Shown here in pieces: positions 31,042-41,380 of a stretch of 52,444 nt of DNA. The notes beneath the pieces were generated by a model. The model ran no database searches and was not told the DNA's origin. It saw only the letters and a program-made list of their open reading frames with translations. This stretch comes from Lachnospiraceae bacterium (GTDB lineage Bacteria > Bacillota > Clostridia > Lachnospirales > Lachnospiraceae): positions 1-52,444 of the forward strand of contig JALEWA010000172.1 of the NCBI GenBank assembly GCA_022788085.1, read 5' to 3'. How positions within the stretch are numbered: the stretch's first letter is position 1; the number at the start of each line of letters is the position of its first letter. Made by a program: the position numbers and the translations under genes.

Positions 31042-31462
31042 GATTGCTTTATTATCGGGAACATTAATGAGTGTGCAAGGTGTATTCAATACAAAGGTTA
31101 CAGAAGGATCCAGTATGTGGGTAGCGAATGCGTTTGTGCAGTTTACAGCATTCCTTGTCTGCATGGCAGCATGGTTGATCTCAGACAGAACCTCCTTTAA
31201 AACACTGCTGACAGTGGAACCGAAGTACTTTCTGCTTGGTGGAGTCATGGGAGCTCTTATTACATGGACGGTAATAAAAAGCATGGATGCACTTGGACCG
31301 GCTAAGGCAGTTATGCTTATTGTAATTGCACAGCTTATTGTAGCTTATCTGATTGAACTTTTTGGATTATTTGGCGTTGACAAACAGCCTTTTAGCTGGA
31401 GAAAGGCCTTGGGAGCTCTGGTTGCCATTGCAGGATTTGTGATGTTTAAGTGGGAAACTTAA
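31028..31462 (+). CDS. DMT superfamily transporter, YdcZ/DUF606 type
   Basis: A 144-residue protein with four to five transmembrane segments, matching the half-size YdcZ (DUF606) branch of the drug/metabolite transporters (GTLMSVQGVFNTKVTEGSS, FLLGGVMGALITW, ALGALVAIAGFVMFKW). Such proteins usually act as dimers; substrate unknown. The start codon is within a 16-bp stem and the stop codon (31460-31462) is within the first hairpin of the 33-bp repeat array, so both ends lie in secondary structure. GAAAGGGG precedes the ATG. Confidence 0.88.
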   Translation: MIGFLIALLSGTLMSVQGVFNTKVTEGSSMWVANAFVQFTAFLVCMAAWLISDRTSFKTLLTVEPKYFLLGGVMGALITWTVIKSMDALGPAKAVMLIVIAQLIVAYLIELFGLFGVDKQPFSWRKALGALVAIAGFVMFKWET

Positions 31463-31553
31463 AAAATCCTTATACGCAAGATTTTTTAAGTGGGAAGAAT
31501 CCATATGCGGCAGATTCTTCAAGTAGGAAAAATCCATATACCGAAGATTTTTC
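31457..31553. repeat. Tandem array of three 33-bp hairpin units
   Basis: Stems: 31457-31468 with 31480-31491 (12 bp), 31494-31501 with 31513-31520 (8 bp), 31527-31534 with 31546-31553 (8 bp). Loops are all 11 nt: CTTATACGCAA, CATATGCGGCA, CATATACCGAA. The middle stem uses GAAGAATC/GATTCTTC where the third uses GAAAAATC/GATTTTTC, a compensatory pair change. The first unit includes the stop codon of the YdcZ-like gene. A further copy is at 20361-20395. Confidence 0.85.
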
Positions 31554-31667
31554 AAGTATAAAATTTTCCACTTGTATTCATGATTGATTTATCATAGAAT
31601 AACAATAGATATGCATAGAGGGGCTTTTATGATGGCAGACATACAGGGAAAACTGTATGGAGGTAAC

Positions 31668-35539: not shown

Positions 35540-37828
35540 ATGAGAAGACCACTTTGCCTCATATGTATGGCATTTGTGGTATCTGTTTTCATTAGTCTGC
35601 AGCTAACATCGTTGCCGGAGGCCTCCTATGTGGAGGAAGAAGGCAACCGTGTTAGTTATGTAGGCGAGGTATATCATAAGGAGTACAGAAATTATGGTCT
35701 GTTACTCTATCTAAGGAATGTCAATCCGGTCAATTCGACCAATATTCCACCTGATTTTTCAATAGAAGAGAAAAAAGAACAGAATATGGGAATTCTATGC
35801 TATGTAAGTGATGGAGAGGAACCAAAGCTTGGAAGCTATGTTTTTATCAGTGGTGAATGCTATTCCTTTCGTAAACCAAGAAATCCGGGCGGTTTCGACC
35901 AGCAGATGTATTATCAAATACAGAACATAGGATTTTACATGAAAAAGGCAGTGATTCTGGCAGAAAGTGAAAGCTATTCAAAATACCATGAATGGCTTTA
36001 TAGGATTCGGAGACACCTGGAGCATGTGTTTGAAGAAACAATGCCCGAAAAGGATGCTTCGATTATGAAAGCAATGGTGCTTGGAAATAAGGCGGAGCTT
36101 GATAAGGAGAGTAAGCAGTTGTATCAAAGTAGTGGGATTGCACATGTGCTTGCCATATCAGGACTTCACATTTCCTTAATAGGAATGGGGCTATATAAGC
36201 TGTTAAAAAGGCTTAGAGTGCCAACTTTACTATCGGCATCGGCTGCAGTCTGCGTCATGATTTTATATGGAGATATGGTTGGAATGAGCAGTTCTGCGTA
36301 TCGGGCAATCTTTATGTTTGCACTGAAAATGGGAGCAGAAGTGATTCACAGAACGTATGATATGATGACAGCGCTGGCAATAGCGGCAGTCGGAATCCTA
36401 TTGGAGCAACCGTTATATATCTATCATGCAGGCTTTTTACTGTCTTTTGGTGCGATTATGGGAATTGGCTGTATGGCAGAAGTAATGAAAGCAGATACAA
36501 AACAAATCTATGTAAATAAGAAAAGACAAAAAAGGAGAGAATGGTTTAGAAATCTATGTATTTATAATATAAGGGAATCTTTATTTGGAAGTGGAAGTAT
36601 CTTTTTGATACATTTTCCAATTATGCTTTCTGTTTATTATGAATTTCCTGTTTATTCATTTTTATTGAACCTGATTATTATTCCAGCAATGGGGATTGTA
36701 ATGGGATTAGGAATTGGGTGTATGTTTTTTGGGAGCATTAGCATAGGAGTAATTGGAACCGGAATTTCACAGCTTGCCGCAATAGGCTGCCAGGCATTTC
36801 TTGCCATGTTTGAATCGCTTTGTGAATGGTCAATGGCCTTACCCGGAGCAGACTGGATTGTAGGAGAACCGGCAAAATGGAGAACTATGGTGTTCTATGC
36901 AGTTGTGGTGCTGTTATTCCTGATGCACAAATATATCAAATATAACGCAAGTGGAAGGTTGTGTTTTCCTTTCCCAATTAAGATTATGTGGATTCTTGTA
37001 GCAGTCTTGCTGCTTACACAAAAGAATTTCCAAGACTTGTCAATTACGATGTTGGATGTCGGACAGGGTGACTGCATCTGGCTGGAAACACAAACGGGGC
37101 ATCATTACATGATTGATGGAGGAAGTACATCGGAGGATAAGCTTTGTGAGTATACACTTGTCCCATTTTTAAAGCAGACAGGAACAGCGTATCTTGACGC
37201 AGTATTTTTAACACATCTGGATCGGGATCATATATCGGGTATTTTGGAATTGCTGGAGGGTGAGAGTGGAATACAAATACGAAGAATTGTGATTGCGAAA
37301 GCTGCGATAAAGGATGACGCTTATGAGGAGCTGGCTGCAGTATGCAAGGAACAACATATTCCCCTTGTTTATGCCAAGTCAGGAGATATCATGACTGATG
37401 GAGAATTAACACTTGAAATACTTCATCCTTCTTCCGATTATGTAACGGATTCCAGAAATGCGTATTCTCTAGTGATGAAGCTTGAGTATGGTTCTTTTCA
37501 TGCATTATTTACCGGAGATGTGGAGGCAGATGGAGAAATGTTTGTGGCTGAGGCATTGCCTGAGAATTGGAATTGTCATTTATATAAAGTTGCACATCAT
37601 GGTTCCAGAAATTCCAATACTGCGGAACTATTGGAGCAGATAAAGCCGCAACTTGCGCTTATTTCCTGTGCAGAGGATAACAGCTATGGGCATCCGCATG
37701 AAGAAACGATGGAACGACTTGATAATGTGGGGAGTAAAATCATGATAACGAAGGATGTGGGGGCGATTATGATTCAGGTAGGGAAAGAGATTCAGGTTCG
37801 GGGATATGCGACCTCAGATGGATGGTAA
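35540..37828 (+). CDS. comEC: DNA internalization protein ComEC/Rec2
   Basis: A 762-residue polytopic protein that forms the channel for single-stranded DNA in transformation. Order: two N-terminal transmembrane segments with an OB-like DUF4131 domain, the Competence domain (LAISGLHISLIGMGLY, GMSSSAYRAIFMF), about ten membrane spans and a C-terminal metallo-beta-lactamase-like domain with MLDVGQGDCIWLE, THLDRDHISG, FTGDVE and VAHHGS. All parts are present, so the gene looks intact. GGAGTGAAG precedes the start. In many Clostridia comEC is followed at once by holA; here a nuclease-like gene and a repeat array lie between. Confidence 0.95.
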   Translation: MRRPLCLICMAFVVSVFISLQLTSLPEASYVEEEGNRVSYVGEVYHKEYRNYGLLLYLRNVNPVNSTNIPPDFSIEEKKEQNMGILCYVSDGEEPKLGSYVFISGECYSFRKPRNPGGFDQQMYYQIQNIGFYMKKAVILAESESYSKYHEWLYRIRRHLEHVFEETMPEKDASIMKAMVLGNKAELDKESKQLYQSSGIAHVLAISGLHISLIGMGLYKLLKRLRVPTLLSASAAVCVMILYGDMVGMSSSAYRAIFMFALKMGAEVIHRTYDMMTALAIAAVGILLEQPLYIYHAGFLLSFGAIMGIGCMAEVMKADTKQIYVNKKRQKRREWFRNLCIYNIRESLFGSGSIFLIHFPIMLSVYYEFPVYSFLLNLIIIPAMGIVMGLGIGCMFFGSISIGVIGTGISQLAAIGCQAFLAMFESLCEWSMALPGADWIVGEPAKWRTMVFYAVVVLLFLMHKYIKYNASGRLCFPFPIKIMWILVAVLLLTQKNFQDLSITMLDVGQGDCIWLETQTGHHYMIDGGSTSEDKLCEYTLVPFLKQTGTAYLDAVFLTHLDRDHISGILELLEGESGIQIRRIVIAKAAIKDDAYEELAAVCKEQHIPLVYAKSGDIMTDGELTLEILHPSSDYVTDSRNAYSLVMKLEYGSFHALFTGDVEADGEMFVAEALPENWNCHLYKVAHHGSRNSNTAELLEQIKPQLALISCAEDNSYGHPHEETMERLDNVGSKIMITKDVGAIMIQVGKEIQVRGYATSDGW

Positions 37829-37883: not shown

Positions 37884-38693
37884 ATGAAAACAATAGAGAA
37901 TAACCTAAAGAAAGAGAAGAAAGAACTGGAAGCAATTGCGAAGGCAACAAAGCAGCGACTGAAATCTGCGCCACAAGGACATTTACGTATTGCAGACAGA
38001 GGAAGAAGTGCGGAGTATTACTATAAGAGTGAAGAAGATTCAGGAAGCAGTAATGGCAGATATCTGAAAAGGAGTGAAATGGATCTGGTTAGAAGAATAT
38101 CGCAAAGAGACTATGATATACACATATTGAAAAATGTAGAAGATCGAATAAGAGCAATAGATATTTTTCTAGACAAGTATGAGAAAACAAATCTGTCAAG
38201 GGTGTATCAAAAGACTAATATATATCGAAGAAAAATGATATGTCCATTTGTCATTCCTGATGATGAATATGTAAGGCTTTGGCAAAAATTTGAGTATAAG
38301 AAAAAACACTTCAATAGTGATACACCGGAAATTATTACAGAAAGGGGAGAACGAGTGAGGTCTAAATCAGAAAAGATTATAGCTGATAAGTTGAATCTGC
38401 TAGGAATTCCCTACCGATATGAATGTCCTTTAATATTAGAAGGGAATATTGAAATGTATCCGGATTTTACAATTCTTAATGTACTTACAAGAGAAGAAGT
38501 GTATCTGGAGCATTTTGGATTAATGGATGATATTAATTATGTTGAGAATATGATGTTTAAACTTAATACTTATGAGAGAAATGGAATATATTTAGGAGTT
38601 AATTTGTTTATTACCCATGAAACAAGTAAAATCCCTTTAAATACAAGAACACTAGATGGGTTGATAAGAAAATTGTTTTGCACTGAACAATAA
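37884..38693 (+). CDS. PD-(D/E)XK nuclease-like protein, AT-rich insert
   Basis: A 269-residue protein. The N-terminus is a charged helical region (1-110, KKEKKELEAIAKATKQRLK). The C-terminal half has a restriction-endonuclease-like pattern: Glu163 in VRSKSEKIIADKL, then MYPDF (Pro193-Asp194) and VYLEHFG (Glu209), with a Lys/Arg-rich helix after. The canonical ExK lysine is replaced (E-H-F), as in several helicase-associated PDDEXK families, so activity is not assured. The gene is clearly AT-richer than its neighbours and sits between comEC and holA, suggesting acquisition. I do not recognise a named family. Confidence 0.65.
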   Translation: MKTIENNLKKEKKELEAIAKATKQRLKSAPQGHLRIADRGRSAEYYYKSEEDSGSSNGRYLKRSEMDLVRRISQRDYDIHILKNVEDRIRAIDIFLDKYEKTNLSRVYQKTNIYRRKMICPFVIPDDEYVRLWQKFEYKKKHFNSDTPEIITERGERVRSKSEKIIADKLNLLGIPYRYECPLILEGNIEMYPDFTILNVLTREEVYLEHFGLMDDINYVENMMFKLNTYERNGIYLGVNLFITHETSKIPLNTRTLDGLIRKLFCTEQ

Positions 38694-38861: not shown

Positions 38862-39052
38862 CCAACGAAAACAAGAAAAAATAGATTTAGTTGGAAAGAA
38901 AAGAGTGAAAATCCCCAACTAAGTGTAGAAAACACAAGAATAGTTGGGAGGAGAAGAGTATAGTTTCCAACTAAAATAAGGAATCGTGTATATAGTTGGG
39001 AAGAATGGTGCAAAAAACACCAACTATATTAGAATAAGTCGAAAATAGTTGG
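38862..39052. repeat. Array of eight alternating inverted 7-mers, 53-bp period
   Basis: Half-sites start at 38862 (CCAACGA), 38888 (TAGTTGG), 38915 (CCAACTA), 38941 (TAGTTGG), 38967 (CCAACTA), 38993 (TAGTTGG), 39020 (CCAACTA) and 39046 (TAGTTGG). Steps are 26, 27, 26, 26, 26, 27 and 26 bp. Sequence between half-sites is 19-20 nt, variable and purine-rich on the plus strand. The 52-53 bp repeat unit is not conserved outside the 7-mers, so it is not a CRISPR. It can be read as three hairpins or as a protein-binding array. Confidence 0.85.
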
Positions 39053-39213: not shown

Positions 39214-39276
39214 ATGAGAAAGGTCGGGTTTTGTATTGAAGCGGATTATTCAGGACATCAAGAGTGGACAATTTAG
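39214..39276 (+). CDS. Possible 20-codon leader ORF overlapping holA
   Basis: ATG at 39214 has the best ribosome site of the area (GAGGAG, 39204-39209) and runs 20 codons (MRKVGFCIEADY...) to a TAG at 39274, overlapping the start of holA out of frame by 41 nt. It may couple or modulate holA translation, or mark a frameshift near the holA start. No homology is known to me. Confidence 0.3.
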   Translation: MRKVGFCIEADYSGHQEWTI

Positions 39277-40216
39277 TAATGTATATCTTCTTTACGGAGA
39301 AGAGGCATATTTACGCAAGCAGTACCGTGATAAATTGAAGAATGCATTGGTTGCTGCGGATGATTCGATGAATTTTACTGCTTTTGCAGGCAAGGATATC
39401 AATGTCAATGAGGTGATTGATCTTGCAGGAACCCTGCCTTTTTTTGCAGAGCGAAGAGTTATCATCATAGAGAACAGCGGCTGGATGAAGTCAGGAAATG
39501 ACAGAATTGTCGAGCTTCTCAAGAATTTACCGGAAACCACATACATGATTTTTGTAGAGGAAGAGGTAGATAAGAGAAATAAACTTTTTAAGGCTGTCGG
39601 GGCAAAGGGGTATGCGGCTTCTTTTGAGGTGCAGGATGAAGCGACACTCAAGAAATGGATTATGGGATTACTTAAAAAGGAGAATAAGCTGATTACTGCT
39701 GATGCACTCAATCTGTTGCTGGATAGGACAGGAACAGATATGGAAAATATCGCAAAGGAAGTAGAAAAGCTTATCTGCTATAAATATTATGATGAAGGAA
39801 TTACCAGGAAAGATGTAGAGGAGCTTTGTACTGTGCGGATACAGAATAAGATATTCGATATGGTGGAGGCTGTTGCAGATAAGAAACAGAAGCAGGCGTT
39901 AGATTTATATTATGACCTGCTTGCGTTAAAGGAAGCACCCATGAAGATTCTTGCGTTGGTTGCAAGACAGTTCAATCTGTTGTTACAGGTTCGGGAGATG
40001 AAGATGAAGGGCTATGATGAAGCAACCATTGCACAAAAAACAGGTATAAATCCATACTTCCTCAAAAAGAAATATCTTCCTCAGGCATCACGCTTTAAAC
40101 TTGAACAACTGCAAAGCGCATTGCAGGCGTGCGTGCAGGCAGACGAGGATGTAAAGACAGGGCGAGTTACTGATTTATTAAGTGTGGAACTGATTATTGT
40201 CAGCCTGAGTATGTAG
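39236..40216 (+). CDS. holA: DNA polymerase III subunit delta
   Basis: A 326-residue clamp-loader delta subunit. NVYLLYGEEAYLRKQYRDKLKNAL at the N-terminus is typical, and the C-terminal domain (PMKILALVARQFNLLLQVREMK, NPYFLKKKYLPQA) matches the family. The start is a TTG at 39236, giving the usual KRIIQDIKSGQF N-terminus; only a weak AAAGG lies upstream, while a strong site nearby serves a different frame (39214). It loads the sliding clamp with delta-prime and gamma/tau. Confidence 0.93.
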   Translation: MKRIIQDIKSGQFSNVYLLYGEEAYLRKQYRDKLKNALVAADDSMNFTAFAGKDINVNEVIDLAGTLPFFAERRVIIIENSGWMKSGNDRIVELLKNLPETTYMIFVEEEVDKRNKLFKAVGAKGYAASFEVQDEATLKKWIMGLLKKENKLITADALNLLLDRTGTDMENIAKEVEKLICYKYYDEGITRKDVEELCTVRIQNKIFDMVEAVADKKQKQALDLYYDLLALKEAPMKILALVARQFNLLLQVREMKMKGYDEATIAQKTGINPYFLKKKYLPQASRFKLEQLQSALQACVQADEDVKTGRVTDLLSVELIIVSLSM

Positions 40217-40633: not shown

Positions 40634-41380
40634 ATGTATCGGGATATTTTGCGTGAAAAGAAGGAGAGGGCAAACTGGACAACGGAGGAGCTTTCCAGGC
40701 GTTCCGGAGTACCGATGGGCACCATTAATAAAATATTAAGCGGAGAAACTTCATCACCGCGTTATGATACTATGGAAGCCTTAGACAGTGCCTTTCGTGA
40801 GGAAGAAGCTCTTATGCTGAGAGAATCTCTGCCATATGAAGTAAAGGAAGAAGAACGGTTATATACCTTAGATGATTATTACCGGCTTCCGAATGATGTC
40901 AGAGCAGAGCTGATCGATGGAAGAATTTTTTATATGCAAAGTCCGACCTCTACACATCAGAGCATAATTGGAGAGCTTTATTTCGCAACACGATTATTCA
41001 TAAAGGAAAGAGATGGAGAGTGCCAGCCTTTGATGGCACCTCTTGATGTTCAGCTTGACTGCGACGATAAGACTATGGTTCAGCCGGATTTTATGATTAT
41101 CTGTGACAAAGAAAAGATATGGAAGGACAGAATTTATGGTACGCCTGACTTTGTTGCAGAGGTATTATCACCCTCTACCAGAAAAAGGGATACTGATATT
41201 AAGATTTTAAAATACAAAAATGCCGGAGTCAGGGAATATTGGATTGTCGATATTGATAAGGAGAGAGTCATTTGTTACTTCTTTGAAGAGGATGGATTCA
41301 TGCCCAATATTTATACCTTTCAGAATGAAGTACCGGTAAGAATTTATGATGGAGAGCTAAAGATAAGAATGGAGGAGTAA
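40634..41380 (+). CDS. XRE-type HTH fused to Uma2 family nuclease-like domain
   Basis: A 248-residue fusion. Residues 4-55 form a Cro/CI-type HTH (TTEELSRRSGVPMGTINKILSG). Residues 76-246 are a Uma2 (DUF820) domain of the PD-(D/E)XK fold, with ELIDGRIF (Glu92), QPDF (Asp152), AEVLSPSTRKRD (Glu176) and KYKNAGVREYWIVD. Uma2 proteins are predicted nucleases of unknown function, expanded in cyanobacteria. The fused HTH and the operator-covered promoter suggest a self-regulated unit, perhaps defence or a selfish element. AAAGGTGGTG precedes the ATG. Confidence 0.9.
   Translation: MYRDILREKKERANWTTEELSRRSGVPMGTINKILSGETSSPRYDTMEALDSAFREEEALMLRESLPYEVKEEERLYTLDDYYRLPNDVRAELIDGRIFYMQSPTSTHQSIIGELYFATRLFIKERDGECQPLMAPLDVQLDCDDKTMVQPDFMIICDKEKIWKDRIYGTPDFVAEVLSPSTRKRDTDIKILKYKNAGVREYWIVDIDKERVICYFFEEDGFMPNIYTFQNEVPVRIYDGELKIRMEE

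Follow-up and report, generated by a model that had tools for sequence, protein, structure and literature searches.

The eight alternating inverted 7-mers at 38862-39052 of the window – the whole stretch of 52,444 nucleotides analysed here – belong to a kind of repeat array that accompanies many members of an unnamed family of nuclease-like genes of gut Clostridia, referred to below as N269. We lean, with some reserve, toward reading such an array as a DNA lattice for the neighbouring N269 protein, which would occupy it as phased dimers, probably control its own gene through it, and disperse it much as REP/BIME elements are dispersed, with an enzyme of the PD-(D/E)XK type.

Results

The array in the window

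CCAACTA and TAGTTGG follow one another by turns, in steps of 26, 27, 26, 26, 26, 27 and 26 bp, between N269 and holA. The features of this region are:

35540..37828, plus strand: comEC, left flank
37884..38693, plus strand: N269, array-associated PD-(D/E)XK-like protein, 269 aa
38862..39052, no strand: array made up of eight inverted half-sites in alternating orientation, a full unit measuring about 53 bp or 5 helical turns (site scan and shuffles)
38862..38868, minus strand: half-site 1, CCAACGA, one mismatch
38888..38894, plus strand: half-site 2, TAGTTGG
38915..38921, minus strand: half-site 3, CCAACTA
38941..38947, plus strand: half-site 4, TAGTTGG
38967..38973, minus strand: half-site 5, CCAACTA
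38993..38999, plus strand: half-site 6, TAGTTGG
39020..39026, minus strand: half-site 7, CCAACTA
39046..39052, plus strand: half-site 8, TAGTTGG
39236..40216, plus strand: holA, right flank

All eight sites and the steps between them were as the first-pass annotation had described. Among 40 Markov shuffles of the window, 38 held no chain of four or more sites, and the longest chain in the other two had four. The annotation was also right that the array holds three TAGTTGG-N19/20-CCAACTA pairs and lies between the nuclease-like gene and holA – that is, downstream of N269, upstream being the usual side at homologous loci. The array is purine-rich (fraction 0.69). Across the window's genome the two-site pattern gave 14 forward matches, as against 1 with the reversed control. 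Elsewhere in the window are a tandem repeat at 31462-31558 (33-bp unit, 2.9 copies) and, just 3′ of holA at 40634-41380, a gene whose product joins an HTH domain to a Uma2 endonuclease-like one.

Arrays accompany many N269 genes

Of 397 sampled genomes of the window's bacterial family, 130 have an N269 match, a few of these matches being weak and perhaps reflecting the nuclease domain alone. We assembled 104 loci: the 88 top-scoring places of this family-wide match list, in list order, and 16 from another match list (G149:C134, which lies 5 nt from a contig end, lower-listed places, matches in G003, G013 and G015, and small pieces are left out). Tandem arrays detected by TRF, with a period of at least 30, at least 2 copies and a position no more than 800 nt upstream, are found at 60 of the 104. 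The first-pass annotation had tied the array to this gene, a link that would fall if homologues lacked arrays and neither half-site nor spacing were conserved; the opposite is the case, and near relatives of the N269 protein retain similar half-sites and spacing.

Arrays with periods of 50-96 lie upstream at 59 loci, downstream at 8, and on both sides at 4. The upstream arrays have a median of 5.3 copies (maximum 15.2) and a median gap to the start codon of 75 nt, the gap being at most 100 nt in 36 of 59, and their sense strand is purine-rich in 48 of 59. Chains of at least four alternating inverted 7-mers tell the same story of position: they occur within 700 nt upstream at 30 of 104 loci, downstream at 7 of 102 and within the gene body at 0 of 104, with 3 of 82 in the farther upstream flank and 2 of 96 in the farther downstream flank. 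A tandem repeat by itself yields chance palindromes, as is seen in the reversed-but-not-complemented control, which gave 9 of 104 upstream, 4 downstream, 0 in the gene, 1 farther upstream and 0 farther downstream; three shuffles of each stretch gave a single such chain in total.

A second set of 37 loci, 32 of them from Clostridia outside the window's family, comprises 18 loci and 19 of 20 extra stretches (L290 repeats L267), first-set loci, partial matches and unfetched matches being left out. Here the array is upstream at 15 loci, downstream at 2 and in the gene at 0, with periods like those of the first set. Among other stretches totalling 330 kb, for the most part taken from genus relatives that lack N269, tandem repeats with a period of at least 30 were the known arrays and three others (L189, L247 and the window repeat at 31462).

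Forty-four of the 104 loci carry no upstream TRF array; some of these are at contig ends and others are not. Separately, N269 lies less than 300 bases from the upstream-side contig end in contigs such as L080, L121, L131, L138, L144 and L160, as would be expected if repeated arrays break assemblies. In L087 (G239) arrays stand on both sides of N269, the upstream ones opposite in purine bias to the downstream one.

Unit length follows the turns of the helix

The 60 upstream periods fall into a series: 34 at 51-54, 11 at 62-64, 10 at 73-75, one at 83 and one at 94, corresponding to 5 to 9 turns of B-DNA. Periods off this series are 39, 57 and 70 in the first set and 128 in the second. Against a helical repeat of 10.5 bp, and over a range of 45-100 bp from which the single periods 39 and 128 fall out, the Rayleigh statistic for 59 upstream periods is R 0.86 with a phase of 0.28 bp; its maximum is flat and lies near 10.3 bp. 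Because 34 of the 60 periods are 51-54, the case for phasing is carried mainly by the remaining ones. With the 53 class removed and one entry kept per genome and period, R is 0.75 (n=24), equalled by 0 of 5000 random sets; the second set (9 of 14 periods at 51-54, the others 62, 73, 83, 84 and 86) gives R 0.81 (n=14), and again 0 of 5000 random sets were as high.

Unit length has also moved repeatedly between these classes. On a quick tree of N269, in which 22 of 55 inner branches are drawn open, the turn class switches 17 times or more. The sisters L134 and L145 (support 94) have the half-site AAAGCATCA/TGATGCTTT and an arm distance of 32 bp in common, while their linkers, of 41 and 30 bp, differ by one turn.

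Half-sites vary with their genes

Inverted arms are a feature of most units: among 59, the arms score at least 6 in 46 and at least 7 in 35, compared with 36 and 10 of 177 shuffled units, and 13 of the 59 have no arms of score 6. The half-site itself differs from one N269 gene to another, even among the paralogues of a single genome, those of G011 having CAGTCGG, GACGGAAAA, CTGAGACCAA and TGGTGGCAC. Half-site similarity correlates with protein identity (Mantel r 0.27, p 0.0002, 44 loci): pairs of N269 proteins more than 50% identical have a mean half-site similarity of 0.75-0.79, and pairs of lower identity 0.55-0.57. This set omits the doubtful loci L095, L128 and L068 as well as L161, whose protein found no match in A1; for L044, L078, L092 and L108 the half-site was assigned manually. 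Joint inheritance may be the sole cause of the correlation.

Fifty-nine half-sites from six arrays of the window's genome give the motif W-T-T-A-G-T-[T/C]-G-G-[G/A]. In the CCAACTA-19-TAGTTGG spacer three midpoint positions are A/T in 176 of 177 cases, while the other spacer has no such restriction at its midpoint; an AT-only dyad centre marks six arrays of this genome. In a count of 43 units, L095, L128 and L068 again dropped, such a centre is present in 22 against 11.4 expected and absent from 21. As an additional feature, the 73-74-bp units of L108, L118 and L142 (G282, G352) carry GCAAGTT-like stretches beside the main arms, which in L108 make a second inverted repeat.

Arrays without a gene

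A tolerant scan of the window's genome found nine arrays: C39 (10 sites), C42 (8), C56 (7), C71, which is the window (8), C82 (8), C111 (14), C187 (8), C227 (10) and C248 (11). Similarity between them mostly stops at the array borders, C111 and C187 having about 48 nt more in common on one side. In G446 the sole N269 match is at C65. This genome contains six arrays, the one beside the gene and 5 gene-less ones, all built on TACGGTT/AACCGTA or a close variant of it (in one array AACGGTT/AACCGTT), steps of 23 and 30 (one 22, one 31) and spacers that are unlike; its half-site pattern gave 0-1 matches in each of the other 11 genomes searched. G068 has arrays at C88, beside the gene, and at C83, a contig with no N269 match, with 0 matches in the other 11 genomes; a third array place, where C103 ends, has the same sequence as the start of C88 and is possibly a contig overlap. 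Units within a single array are often alike, and between the arrays of one genome the half-sites are constant while the spacers vary. Among 24 arrays listed, 17 overlap no ORF of at least 90 aa and 7 do, one of them (G446:C13) wholly.

Distribution and genomic sites

Of 60 genomes searched, two, the window's and G023, contain a triple TAGTTGG pattern; of 397 family genomes, again two, the window's and G279, contain a triple TAGTYGG pattern. Among named genomes the triple CCAACTA/TAGTTGG pattern picked out nine stretches, eight of them from five ruminant-gut Lachnospiraceae MAGs (RGIG4203, RGIG5355, RGIG8571, RGIG3012 and RGIG1692) with arrays of 9-16 sites; the ninth, from Enterococcus, contains no array. 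N269 homologues are present in four of these MAGs, with 57-61% identity in three, one of which has an internal stop, and broken pieces in RGIG3012. Beside the homologues of RGIG8571 and RGIG5355 are degenerate forms of the half-site only, and beside that of RGIG4203 no half-site was seen.

Comparison of the window's genome with its relatives reveals presence and absence at one orthologous site. N269 lies between comEC and holA in G000, G014 and G023, and before holA, near the contig start, in G011; in the 18 genus relatives whose loci showed both genes, comEC and holA are directly adjacent, with a gap of 38-183 nt. At the pepF-addB junction, the site of the C111 array, 13 of 15 relatives, including the closest, G014, match only from about addB on, leaving the array unmatched, and G023 and G032 gave no match at all. 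Two other repeats were noted near pepF: the last 1.5 kb of L221 (G014) has a different long inverted-repeat element at this junction in place of the C111 array, and L247 3388-3585 (G020) holds a 60-bp tandem repeat, 3.3 copies at 98%, that contains an inverted repeat.

N269 often stands behind housekeeping genes on the same strand – those for ribosomal proteins L13 and S9, EF-Tu, GMP synthase, lysyl-tRNA synthetase and ComEC, all named by sequence recognition. N269 modules behind the genes for EF-Tu, S9, GMP synthase and lysyl-tRNA synthetase are seen in L093, L096, L097, L130, L134, L139, L145, L108 and L123, as if the 3′ ends of these four genes were preferred sites.

The N269 protein

The predicted structure combines an N-terminal part, a helical hairpin with a beta-hairpin, and a nuclease-like C-terminal part whose fold matches PD-(D/E)XK nucleases; TnsA is also among the fold matches. 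K161, E163, E180, D194 and E209 are invariant across 92 N269 proteins and form a core of the PD-(D/E)XK type, their putative catalytic role being read from the alignment. Pfam and NCBIfam assign N269 to no family, although it matches in a third or so of the sampled family genomes; at an E value of 0.01 no transposase family is among the matches of the 92 members, and no toxin family in these collections is well matched. Some genomes encode several paralogues. A search of the open-licence literature found no description of such arrays or of the N269 protein.

Discussion

We propose that N269 dimers would sit on the inverted half-sites and that, the unit length being close to a whole number of turns, bound dimers would be aligned on one face of the DNA and able to touch. 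The array beside the gene probably controls N269 itself, a suggestion prompted by the many upstream arrays that end within 100 nt of the start codon. Gene-less arrays would share the half-site of that array, being read by the same protein, and the predicted PD-(D/E)XK enzyme probably aids their spread or upkeep by cutting. A regular protein lattice on DNA was one of the options offered by the first-pass annotation, and it is the one that our data support.

A different use of the same binding is that the arrays hold a toxic nuclease inactive, and that infection or DNA damage frees or activates N269 to attack foreign or own DNA, as defence or abortive infection. This agrees with the invariant catalytic-type residues, with the match of all 92 aligned members to the PD-(D/E)XK part of the candidate defence proteins PDC-S68, with the paralogues of different half-site in G011, and with the scatter of N269 genes behind various housekeeping genes. 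However, in the window protein PADLOC matches the nuclease domain alone (residues 151-265). The 457 neighbouring ORFs fall into 390 clusters, and in the 15 largest we recognised no defence gene; plasmid matches (5 records) cover 25-58% of the protein, and the one phage match, covering 77%, is an unverified fecal record. We consider sequestration unlikely.

We give a low probability to the idea that the array works as RNA, transcribed as a 5′ hairpin leader that controls or neutralises N269 in the manner of a type III toxin-antitoxin repeat RNA. The position of many arrays directly upstream and their purine-rich sense strand would suit such a leader, as would the folding z-score of the window array (about -7), but both strands fold strongly, as with any inverted repeat. 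Across 15 array loci from six genomes, 72 one-sided changes comprise 52 mismatches and 20 G-U pairs, and 11 two-sided changes comprise 6 that pair and 5 that do not, so that changes in one arm mostly destroy the pairing and compensating changes do not preserve it. Whole-turn quantisation of unit length is without reason in RNA, gene-less arrays lie far from the gene, and Rfam gives no match in the window. The RNA hairpins, small-RNA role and CsrA sites raised by the first-pass annotation find no support in this evidence; judging by the three positions after TAGTTGG (n=59: G 40/A 13, G 29/A 20, A 33/T 19), the arm is often, though not invariably, accompanied by a GGA. Where both nearest ORFs are on one strand, the purine-richer array strand is the ORF sense strand in 11 of 15 cases. 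Leading strands in Clostridia are generally purine-rich, and this bias therefore does not decide between DNA and RNA.

That some other chromosomal protein reads the arrays, with N269 a passenger prone to insert beside them, is an explanation we rate lower again. RGIG1692 has arrays with no N269 match, and G023 keeps its C57 array while its nearest N269 homologue is frame-broken; against this, the half-site varies with N269 sequence, even among the G011 paralogues. Ordinary functionless minisatellites, for which the similarity of units within an array would speak, as slippage would produce it, are already made very unlikely by half-sites that stay constant where spacers differ between arrays of one genome, and by location, phasing and inverted symmetry.

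The lattice that we propose for N269 has its nearest counterpart in REP sequences and BIMEs with their RAYTs. In the published account of RAYTs (PMC2817692), a gene stands beside palindromic repeats of alternating orientation and regular spacing, gene-less copies lie between genes, and each enzyme has its own repeat. Extragenic alternating palindromes with gene-less copies are likewise found here (nine such arrays lie in the window's genome and six in G446). Yet REP copies usually number over 100, and N269 arrays are far fewer; the RAYT is a Y1/HUH tyrosine transposase, whereas N269 is of the PD-(D/E)XK type; and the RAYT gene is flanked on both sides by inverted REPs, an arrangement rare among the 104 N269 loci. 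The segments between REPs in the case-study clusters of that account vary substantially in length (PMC2817692), while N269 array spacing is nearly fixed by the helix, and RAYT homologues were not found outside the lineage discussed there (PMC2817692), the hosts of N269 being Clostridia. The arrays thus resemble the BIME/RAYT system in plan and depart from it in the enzyme and the flanks that define it.

Other systems resemble the N269 arrays in fewer respects. In the type III toxin-antitoxin systems ToxIN and CptIN, as at many N269 loci, tandem repeats immediately precede a nuclease-like gene, and Eubacterium rectale is a species of the Lachnospiraceae. CptIN comes from Eubacterium rectale (PMC4627078). 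The type III antitoxin, however, is a direct-repeat RNA 5′ of its toxin; N269 units, though also 5′, are mostly inverted repeats of 51-94 bp, phased to DNA, with gene-less copies elsewhere and half-site changes that mostly break RNA pairing. Nor does N269 clearly match, in Pfam or NCBIfam, a toxin family such as the ToxN-type endoribonucleases; among the folds listed, its C-terminal part resembles PD-(D/E)XK nucleases. Like CRISPR, the N269 loci place a regular repeat array next to a nuclease-like gene, but their repeats are alternating inverted half-sites (7-mers in the window), their spacers are similar within most arrays seen, where those of CRISPR are unique, and we recognised no Cas gene among the 15 largest recurrent neighbour clusters. 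The same clusters yielded no recognisable TnsB/TnsC-type partner such as the fold match to TnsA of Tn7 might lead one to expect.

With further arrays of the same motif lying away from the gene in the few genomes checked, gene and arrays together look like an undescribed DNA-reading system. As a gene-array system we rate it categorically new; a role in transposition or defence would bring it nearer to known kinds. More tentatively, it is possible that N269 represents a new class of bacterial genetic system, in which a nuclease has its own phased DNA lattice, a fast-changing paired specificity, and gene-less lattices that it seeds. The enzyme itself may make the arrays, cutting and duplicating DNA in whole-turn steps.

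For the family at large, the interest lies in what such pairs record. Steps of whole turns, taken over at least 17 changes on the tree, amount to a natural experiment in how lattices assemble along DNA. The arrays would offer a direct read-out of protein-DNA co-evolution, with dozens of natural pairs of protein and likely half-site in the present data and probably many more to be had, and from such pairs a recognition code could be learned.
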